The notes under the pieces are model-generated. The model had not been told where the DNA came from. It did no database searches and saw nothing but the letters and a program-made list of their open reading frames with translations. Below are positions 26,954 to 31,990 of a stretch of DNA of 33,110 bases, in pieces. The position numbers and the translations under genes were made by a program. Numbering within the stretch: the stretch's first letter is position 1; each line of letters begins with the position of its first letter. This stretch comes from Flavobacteriaceae bacterium (lineage in GTDB: Bacteria; Bacteroidota; Bacteroidia; Flavobacteriales; Flavobacteriaceae). The stretch spans positions 1-33,110 of the forward strand of contig JAGXIE010000012.1 in NCBI GenBank assembly GCA_024635765.1, read 5' to 3'.

Positions 26954-27631
26954 ATGCGAATTGATATCATCACAGTATTACCAGAACTTTTAAAAAGCCC
27001 TTTTGAAGCATCCATTTTAAAGCGAGCAATTGAAGCCAATCTAGTTAGTGTTCATTTTCATAATTTGAGGGATTATGCTTCTGACAGATATAAATCAGTT
27101 GATGACACACAATTTGGCGGTGGCGCAGGAATGGTCATGATGGTCGAACCCATTGATAAATGCATCTCGCAATTGCAAGCAGAGCGCAATTATGACGAAA
27201 TCATCTATATGACTCCAGATGGTGAAACATTAAAACAAAGCATTGCCAATCAGCTTTCATTAAAGGAAAATATCATCATTCTATGTGGACATTATAAAGG
27301 TGTGGATCAACGAGTTCGCGATATGTTCGTCACTCGTGAAATCTCTATTGGTGATTATGTTCTTTCCGGTGGAGAACTCGGAGCTGCCGTACTTTGTGAT
27401 GCTATTATAAGATTGATTCCTGGTGTATTAGGTAATGAGACCTCTGCTCTTACGGATTCGTTTCAAGATAATTTATTGGCTCCACCTATTTACACAAAAC
27501 CGAGAGAATACAAAGGCTTAAAAGTTCCTGAAGTCTTATTCAGCGGCAACTTTCCAAAAATTGAAAAATGGCGTGAAGAACAGGCCTATCAAAGAACAAA
27601 AGACCGAAGGCCTGATTTACTTGATGATTAA
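26954..27631 (+). CDS. trmD: tRNA (guanosine(37)-N1)-methyltransferase TrmD
   Basis: [64 protein letters not shown]. Confidence 0.97.
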
Positions 27632-27782: not shown

Positions 27783-27824
27783 AGATTAACCTCTGGCGAT
27801 GTACGCGAATGTTGGTTTGAATCA
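27783..27824 (+). promoter_or_regulatory. Putative structured 5' leader of rplS
   Basis: GATT+AACC (27784-27791) can pair with GGTT+AATC (27814-27823, TG bulge), enclosing GCG-atgta-CGC (27796-27806); alternative CAGA/TCTG pairing overlaps it. Confidence 0.55.
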
Positions 27825-27843: not shown

Positions 27844-28194
27844 ATGAATTCTTTAGTAAAATTTGTACAAGACGAATTTGTAGAAAAAAAAGAGATTCCA
27901 GATTTTAGCGCTGGTGATACGATCACAGTGTATTATGAAATCCGTGAAGGTGAAAAAAAACGTACACAGTTCTTTAAAGGTGTTGTTTTGCAACGTAAAG
28001 GAACTGGAAGTTCTGAAACATTCACCATTCGTAAAATGTCAGGAACCATTGGAGTGGAACGTATATTTCCAGTCAATTTACCAGCTCTTCAAAAAATTGA
28101 AGTGAACAAAAAAGGTAAAGTTAGACGTTCAAGAATTTACTATTTCAGAGGTCTCACTGGTAAAAAAGCAAGAATTAAAGAGAAGAGAAATTAA
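27844..28194 (+). CDS. rplS: 50S ribosomal protein L19
   Basis: FSAGDTITVYYEIREGEKKRTQFFKGVVLQRKGTGSSETFTIRKMSGTIGVERIFPVNLPALQKIEVNKKGKVRRSRIYYFRGLTGKKARIKE. Confidence 0.98.
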   Translation: MNSLVKFVQDEFVEKKEIPDFSAGDTITVYYEIREGEKKRTQFFKGVVLQRKGTGSSETFTIRKMSGTIGVERIFPVNLPALQKIEVNKKGKVRRSRIYYFRGLTGKKARIKEKRN

Positions 28195-28213
28195 TCTAGA
28201 CTCATTTAAATAT

Positions 28214-28245
28214 AAGAAAGCCTTGAGATTCAAGGCTTTCTTGAT
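28214..28245 (+). terminator. Intrinsic terminator-like hairpin after rplS
   Basis: AAGAAAGCCTTG (28214-28225) and CAAGGCTTTCTT (28231-28242) form a perfect 12-bp stem with 5-nt loop. Confidence 0.8.
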
Positions 28246-28266
28246 TTATTAACTTTTGTTAATAAA
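28245..28266. repeat. Perfect 9-bp inverted repeat with 4-nt spacer (TTTATTAAC-tttt-GTTAATAAA)
   Basis: Read directly at 28245-28253 and 28258-28266. Confidence 0.85.
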
Positions 28267-28306
28267 CTATGTTTACAAGATGTTGAAAACTAAACAGTTG
28301 TAATTG

Positions 28307-28337
28307 TTGGTTTTTTTGAAAAACTTTTGTAATTTAG
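28307..28337 (+). promoter_or_regulatory. Putative Bacteroidetes promoter for the ncRNA candidate (TTG-N20-TAATTTAG)
   Basis: TTG at 28307-28309 and TAATTTAG at 28330-28337 (one mismatch to TANNTTTG). Confidence 0.5.
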
Positions 28338-28342
28338 TAAAA

Positions 28343-28855
28343 CGAATTAGCAACAACCCTCGGGTTGGTTTCAGCATCGAAAATTGAATTAGTGCTAATC
28401 CGTATGAAGTAACGTTCTTTATAAAATTGTCTTTTGAGGTTTTTGTAGTGTCACGTGTATGCGTGAAGAACTAAAAAATCATGATATCTTAAAAAGTACC
28501 GCATGTTTAGGCAGGCCGTAACTAGTAAGGTTGAAAGTTTCCAAAGATGACTGCTGCGAAAGCAAATATCAAAGTAGGAAACAATGTTTTTAGACGTTGT
28601 AAGTTGTGAAAGCGAAGTGCAAAAGAGGAGACATCAAGAAAGATAATTAACTGAAACACAGTAATAACAGATCAATTCATTTTGAAAGTTATGAACCGTT
28701 TCATTGAAATAGTGAAATTTGAATTGAAAAAGACGATTCAGAACGCAAGTTCTAATCGGCTGATGTAACAGCAATGTTGCATAGATCACAAAGTAACTGT
28801 TTCAAAAAAGCCATGTCAGAGTAGTCTAACTACAGTGATATGGCTTTTGTGTTTT
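28343..28855 (+). ncRNA. Candidate large structured non-coding RNA (~510 nt), family unknown
   Basis: No long ORF; promoter-like element upstream, intrinsic terminator at the 3' end. Helices: 28346-28352/28393-28399; 28440-28449+28451-28455/28462-28466+28470-28478; 28537-28542/28577-28582; 28672-28679/28720-28727; 28734-28758 (GCAA-capped); 28764-28781 (GCAA-capped); 28653-28662/28796-28803. Confidence 0.65.
28804..28855 (+). terminator. Intrinsic terminator of the ncRNA candidate
   Basis: AAAGCCAT ... ATGGCTTT outer stem, inner TCA/TGA and GTAGT-cta-ACTAC, followed by TTTTgtgtttt. Confidence 0.82.
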
Positions 28856-28870
28856 ACATATGTTTGGTTT

Positions 28871-29491
28871 TTAGTTGTAATAAGGTGTATTTAAGGTCGT
28901 CATTGTAGAATTGACCATGTCACCTTTTATGACCGTTAACCGTAAACGATATGTTTCATAATACTCTGGGATGTCCAATAATAAATCAGGATCATCACCA
29001 ACTTCATTTATTGTGAGGTAATTTCCGTGGGAATCACATTTCACCAATGCCCATTCAAGTTTTAAATCATCATCATTTTTTATTCACTGCCAACCATTTT
29101 CTGGATCATACCGCATTGCGTAATAAAAAACTTTCTTTTCAGAATCCAACAATACCAATGTTTTTAAAATTCTAACCGATGGTTCTGCTAATGTAACTTT
29201 AAATCTCAAAAGCTCTTTGCCTAATTGAAAATATGCCAATTTATTTCTCCCCTTTCGATCAATCAAACGATCAAAAATCAATTTATCAATTTGATGCTGG
29301 TCTCTCCAATTTGTAATGAAAAATGATTGGTCTGAACCCAATAAGTTTAACTTGCCCATCATTTTTAGGGATACATCTGCACAAACATATGATATTTTTA
29401 AAGATTCAAATGATTTTAGAATTATCATAGGGTCGTCTGAATCAGTTGTAATGATCAACCAAATGGCATCTATACCATTAATTGTCCCCAT
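28871..29491 (-). pseudogene. Hypothetical protein gene interrupted by one in-frame TGA (135 + 70 codons)
   Basis: The track ORF 29084-29491 ends ...RYDPENGWQ-TGA; the same frame then stays open for 70 codons to TAA at 28871-28873: IKNDDDLKLEWALVKCDSHGNYLTINEVGDDPDLLLDIPEYYETYRLRLTVIKGDMVNSTMTTLNTPYYN. Confidence 0.6.

Positions 29492-29743: not shown

Positions 29744-31990
<2,247 letters not shown>

Follow-up and report, generated by a model that had tools for sequence, protein, structure and literature searches.

A structured RNA of about 510 nt between rplS and icd as a candidate new RNA family of Flavobacteriaceae

To our knowledge, few conserved stand-alone bacterial RNAs reach a size of about 500 nt. 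A candidate for such an RNA lies in the gap between rplS and icd of a bacterium of the Flavobacteriaceae, a major bacterial family whose members are mostly aquatic. A sequence-only reading of the window (the whole stretch of DNA analysed, 33,110 nt of contig G000:C132 in a 200-contig genome) had proposed that this gap encodes a stand-alone structured RNA of a possibly undescribed family. Is there a real RNA gene at this locus, does it belong to a known family, and what might it do? These questions gain interest from three large bacterial RNAs with recently solved structures, which turned out to form RNA dimers and nanocages (PMC12286853). Here, we describe the borders, fold, evolution and distribution of the rplS–icd RNA, and weigh how it might function.

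Gene borders and fold

The structured RNA gene extends on the + strand from 28342 to about 28850-28855 (Table 1). Sense ORFs lying wholly within it reach 28 aa at most, in line with the earlier statement that the + strand of the gap holds no long ORF, and in homologous loci the longest sense ORF has a median of 35 aa versus 32 aa in shuffled sequences, so we rejected a coding gene. The promoter-like element ahead of the gene is found as first described and is conserved in homologues. Under the flavobacterial consensus TAnnTTTG at -12 to -5, as given in PMC9723704, transcription is predicted to start around 28342. A stand-alone RNA of about 510 nt would be transcribed from a promoter of the sigma-A type. 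Further downstream, a second reverse-strand ORF (28871-29047) lies in the frame of the one at 29084-29491, separated from it by an in-frame stop. No Pfam match was found for the 29084-29491 ORF, and the pair (28871-29491, - strand) is possibly a decayed gene.

Table 1. Features at the rplS–icd locus, in window positions
Feature	Position	Strand	Remarks
trmD	26954-27631		upstream of the L19 leader
L19-Flavobacteria leader (RF03130)	27787-27814		29-position element upstream of rplS (cmscan)
rplS	27844-28194		upstream neighbour of the RNA gene
rplS intrinsic terminator	28213-28243	+	sets rplS apart from the RNA gene; hairpin here in related loci too
Operator-like palindrome	28246-28265	.	TTATTAACTTTTGTTAATAA, consensus TTATNAACANNTGTTNATAA; conserved across loci
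Further half sites	28270-28278; 28281-28289		TGTTTACAA; TGTTGAAAA; just past the palindrome
Predicted flavobacterial promoter, sigma-A type	28307-28337	+	TTG (28307-28309), 20-nt spacer, TAATTTAG (28330-28337); conserved in homologues
Structured non-coding RNA gene	28342-28855	+	shuffle folding, homologues, covariation
5′ domain	28346-28399	+	closing helix 28346-28352/28393-28399 around two hairpins; helices 1-3
5′ domain hairpins	28354-28358/28363-28367; 28370-28373/28385-28388	+	
Hairpin with conserved loop	28405-28421	+	AACGUU (mostly ACGUU in subtype 2)
Central multi-branched domain	28426-28647	+	10-bp closing helix 28426-28435/28638-28647; GNRA-capped hairpins; helices 6-16
Arm GAAAC/GUUUC	28653-28702	+	bears conserved hairpin UCAAUACAUUUUGA (UCAAUUCAUUUUGA in the window); helices 17-19
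3′ domain	28704-28805	+	closed by UUGAAAUAGU/ACUGUUUCAA (28704-28713/28796-28805); helices 20-23; model R1
Terminator	28806-28855	+	hairpin 28806-28848, stem AAAGCCAUGUCA/UGAUAUGGCUUU, unusually conserved in sequence; then U-rich tail to 28855
ORF	29084-29491	-	between the RNA gene and icd
Monomeric icd	29753-31990		downstream of the reverse-strand ORF

The RNA folds into about 25 helices plus an intrinsic terminator. Its sense strand reaches -136.5 kcal/mol, compared with -105 ± 5.5 for dinucleotide shuffles (z = -5.7), and none of 100 shuffles folds as well; the folding of this stretch is not due to chance. Much of the architecture outlined in the sequence-only reading holds up in relatives. 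The 5′ domain, described as ATTAGCA/TGCTAAT around a CAACC-CTCG-GGTTG hairpin, is conserved, with two-sided changes in helices 1-3, and gains a second hairpin (28370-28373/28385-28388) that had not been listed. The middle domain stood in part: GTTTCC/GGAAAC and the GAAA-capped stem are conserved, whereas the proposed ACAATG/CGTTGT pairing is not the conserved helix, as the AATG of ACAATG pairs in the consensus with 28628-28634 and not with the neighbouring CGTTGT. The closing helices of the central and 3′ domains had both been overlooked. The strong terminator, placed at 28804-28855, is indeed present, and in its stem 11 of 12 pairs are invariant among 26 sequences, a constancy far beyond what termination needs.

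Compensatory change and family membership

Alignments for the covariation analysis were sequence-based, not structure-based. In a set of 26 sequences, all below 80% identity, the consensus structure comprises 140 pairs, and 94.7% of the pair cells hold standard pairs. Two-sided change occurs in 86 of the 140 pairs, covering 405 cells. When partners are slid by 1-3 columns, only 39-43% remain paired and only 34-47 pairs show two-sided change; a shuffled control gives 45. Because a structure derived from the same alignment favours itself, we added a tree-aware test of all column pairs (our own script, in the manner of R-scape), in which 154,290 column pairs from 87 sequences are set against null alignments simulated along the tree of these sequences. 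At E<0.05, six pairs are significant, and all six lie inside the predicted structure; five reach at least 80% standard pairing, the sixth 79%. Among all column pairs of the 87 sequences, no pseudoknot or other significant pair was found outside the structure. Restricting the test to the structure's own pairs gives 25 of 133 at E<0.05 and a summed statistic of 3300 versus 15 ± 78 in the null, both optimistic figures as the structure comes from the same alignment. Fifteen null alignments were refolded, and none yielded any consensus structure. Conservation and covariation in relatives, which the earlier reading had named among its checks, are both very strong, and this comparative analysis demonstrates the gene borders, the sense strand and a modular RNA architecture maintained by compensatory change.

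The sense strand outfolds the antisense in both sequence sets, the consensus fold reaching -168 versus -128 kcal/mol, as expected for an RNA with G-U pairs. This preference also argues against the idea that the stretch is a chromosomal replication origin, its structure reflecting DNA hairpins or an origin-linked transcript. The idea was prompted by upstream repeats (TTATNAACA) that resemble DnaA boxes (TTATCCACA) and by dnaA, which lies about 13 kb upstream of the locus inside the window. However, two complete genomes show no switch of GC skew at this position, which rules against an origin and leaves it with next to no probability.

With cmscan against Rfam 15, no family reached its gathering score on the RNA, whether in the window, in a permissive scan to E=5 or at 15 homologous loci. 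The earlier reading had already seen no RNase P RNA, tmRNA or 6S RNA here, and both programs used agree: RF00010 and RF01685 (6S-Flavo) do not match at the locus and are instead found on other contigs of the same genome (G000:C124 and G000:C161, respectively), and ARAGORN finds no tmRNA in the window. Literature searches returned no description of an rplS–icd RNA. We are close to certain that the stretch is a real structured RNA gene. The proposal of an undescribed family gains support from the lack of an Rfam match together with the strong covariation, and the best reading of these comparisons is a new family of Flavobacteriaceae, probably inherited mainly by descent.

Distribution, subtypes and genomic context

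A blastn search of 60 relatives returned full-length copies in other genera, and the rplS-downstream regions of relatives yielded about 140 homologous loci, as the earlier reading had suggested collecting. The closest RNA at a named locus is that of Gelidibacter maritimus (80% over 507 nt); other named hosts include Maribacter, Zobellia, Algibacter, Psychroserpens, Tenacibaculum, Kordia, Cellulophaga, Aquimarina and Formosa. A covariance model of the 3′ domain plus terminator (R1) matches 190 of 301 Flavobacteriaceae genomes and 143 of 219 genera. The genome count is a lower bound, since several genomes missed by R1 keep diverged traces behind rplS (the upstream block, a hairpin with the ACGUUC motif, or a similar terminator). 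Outside the family, R1 found nothing in an order-wide sample, and a class-wide sample matched the window's own genome only. A strong copy (129.6 bits) on a contig binned as Chlorobiota (L224) probably sits on a misbinned Flavobacteriaceae contig, and a Clostridium match to the terminator pattern (L223), lacking both rplS and IDH and scoring weakly with the model, was dismissed as chance.

The RNA is usually single-copy, chromosomal and syntenic at rplS–icd. Among the 160 loci first fetched, rplS and icd were both detected at 113; eight with neither are weak blastn matches elsewhere, and the other 152 have one or both genes and all carry the terminator motif. One genome (G159) has three model matches (among them L074 and L087), and L087, with icd and without rplS, matches the 3′ part only; the extra matches may represent a second copy or a mixed assembly.

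This neighbourhood raises the alternative that the RNA is a cis-acting leader or attenuator of icd, or the 3′ UTR of rplS. At least one of the two genes adjoins the RNA at all true loci, and icd frequently lies about 95-140 or 200-207 nt from the RNA. Yet rplS ends in its own terminator ahead of the RNA, which in turn has a promoter-like site and terminator of its own, and a conserved promoter-like TTTTGTATATT-GC block precedes icd after the RNA terminator. At some loci, RNA and icd stand about 700-900 nt apart, a distance that in the window includes a reverse-strand ORF, and several genomes keep rplS–icd without the RNA. Given that icd comes with a promoter-like site of its own and is often set apart from the RNA by other DNA, a leader role is highly unlikely, and a stand-alone gene remains our reading.

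Two subtypes that share a single architecture can be distinguished. Subtype 2 (34 loci) has a similar order of elements, with the interior of the 3′ domain swapped for a conserved GCAAUCAAUGGUUGC hairpin; its covariation alone is too weak for significance over all pairs. Other lineages lack the RNA. It is absent from the seven examined genomes of g141, the largest sampled genus of the family and frequent in the order sample, which may be Flavobacterium. In five of the seven, monomeric icd follows rplS at a distance of 236-291 nt, and the other two have an open frame after rplS whose start, read by eye, resembles that of a different isocitrate dehydrogenase. In genus g145, the RNA is missing from one genome (181-nt gap) and present in another (1019-nt gap). 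From this pattern, the RNA behaves like a discrete module, cleanly missing from some lineages, and, since some genomes do without it, is not essential in general. The related genomes without the RNA are natural controls, and the many cultured genera that carry it (e.g. Maribacter, Zobellia, Formosa, Tenacibaculum, Cellulophaga and Gelidibacter) make deletion, partners and structure directly accessible to study.

Regulation, possible function and known RNAs

Upstream of the predicted promoter lies an operator-like palindrome that was absent from the first list of features. Allowing three mismatches, its consensus TTATNAACANNTGTTNATAA is found in 119 of 126 loci, and allowing one, in 106 of 126, compared with 1 and 0 in the shuffled control; one or more half sites usually come after it. 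A regulator binding this conserved palindrome would set expression of the RNA. A palindrome-like site (TAATTAACAAATGTTGATAA, position ~2001-2020 in L201-L205) also stands upstream of a gene in five genera that we named gyrB from its protein sequence, read by eye; judging from the likeness of the sites, both are possibly under a shared regulator. At L353 and L332, the operator-like repeats occur once more, about 600-720 nt downstream of rplS, and at L353 this second copy stands ahead of icd.

How might the RNA act? Conservation is higher in paired columns than in unpaired ones (0.79 versus 0.66), conserved stretches without pairing measure just 4-6 nt, and covarying stems are capped by GNRA loops. 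With the fold thus under selection, we propose that the RNA acts through its folded shape, which fits these features better than a long antisense stretch would. It may serve as a scaffold or RNP RNA to which one or several proteins, or other copies of the RNA, bind, in the way of OLE, ROOL and GOLLD; by analogy, we hold this role to be about evenly balanced against all others. Two specific contacts were considered and rejected. Homodimerization through a palindromic kissing loop (AACGUU) fails as most of subtype 2 has lost the palindrome and usually keeps only ACGUU. A loop–loop contact between the GUGUAUGC and UACAUU hairpins, noticed by eye, fails as loop variants occur without matching changes; nor did this contact yield a significant pair outside the structure.

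Instead, the RNA could be a trans-acting regulator whose conserved loops pair with mRNAs, with the rest of the fold there to present these loops and stabilize the RNA. In the unpaired loops AACGUU and UACAUU, conservation is 89% or more, and there is a precedent in Rfp18, a structured sRNA of Flavobacterium psychrophilum whose deletion lowers the mRNA of predicted base-pairing targets, according to PMC9723704. However, each conserved unpaired stretch offers only 4-6 nt, and the RNA is far larger than the 176-bp median of independent transcripts reported there, so that we consider such a regulator rather unlikely. More doubtful still is an RNA that, like 6S or CsrB, sequesters protein, in which recurring GAAA loops or junctions would titrate a regulator. 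Several such elements do recur and are conserved, but GAAA loops also serve as ordinary tertiary-contact elements, and the same genome already encodes 6S-Flavo elsewhere. Taken together, a stand-alone RNA of about 510 nt with a sigma-A-type promoter, forming a new Flavobacteriaceae family, acting as a scaffold through its folded shape and regulated through the palindrome, is the reading we lean towards slightly. More speculative, and in our view improbable as a whole though less so than a trans-acting regulator, is a new ornate RNA class that builds a cellular RNA–protein or RNA-only particle under a dedicated regulator shared with gyrB-like genes.

Among known RNAs, 6S-Flavo and RNase P RNA are stand-alone housekeeping RNAs at other loci of the same genome. 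The L19-Flavobacteria leader shares the operon neighbourhood and the genomes of the rplS–icd RNA and is a separate element. The Rfp sRNAs of F. psychrophilum are likewise structured and independently transcribed (as predicted here), but mostly short, going by the main text of PMC9723704, which does not mention rplS. OLE, ROOL and GOLLD measure from about 600 to over 800 nt (PMC12286853) and show no sequence or structure match to the rplS–icd RNA in the cmscan searches (window, permissive scan and 15 loci). ROOL and GOLLD have been described from phages and prophages, frequently close to tRNA islands, whereas the rplS–icd RNA is chromosomal and syntenic and, unlike all three, limited to Flavobacteriaceae in the samples searched. 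Like OLE-, ROOL- and GOLLD-type RNAs, it combines large size and extensive covarying structure with a (predicted) gene of its own; all four are RNAs of poorly known function that stand alone and fold into multi-branched, elaborate and conserved structures.
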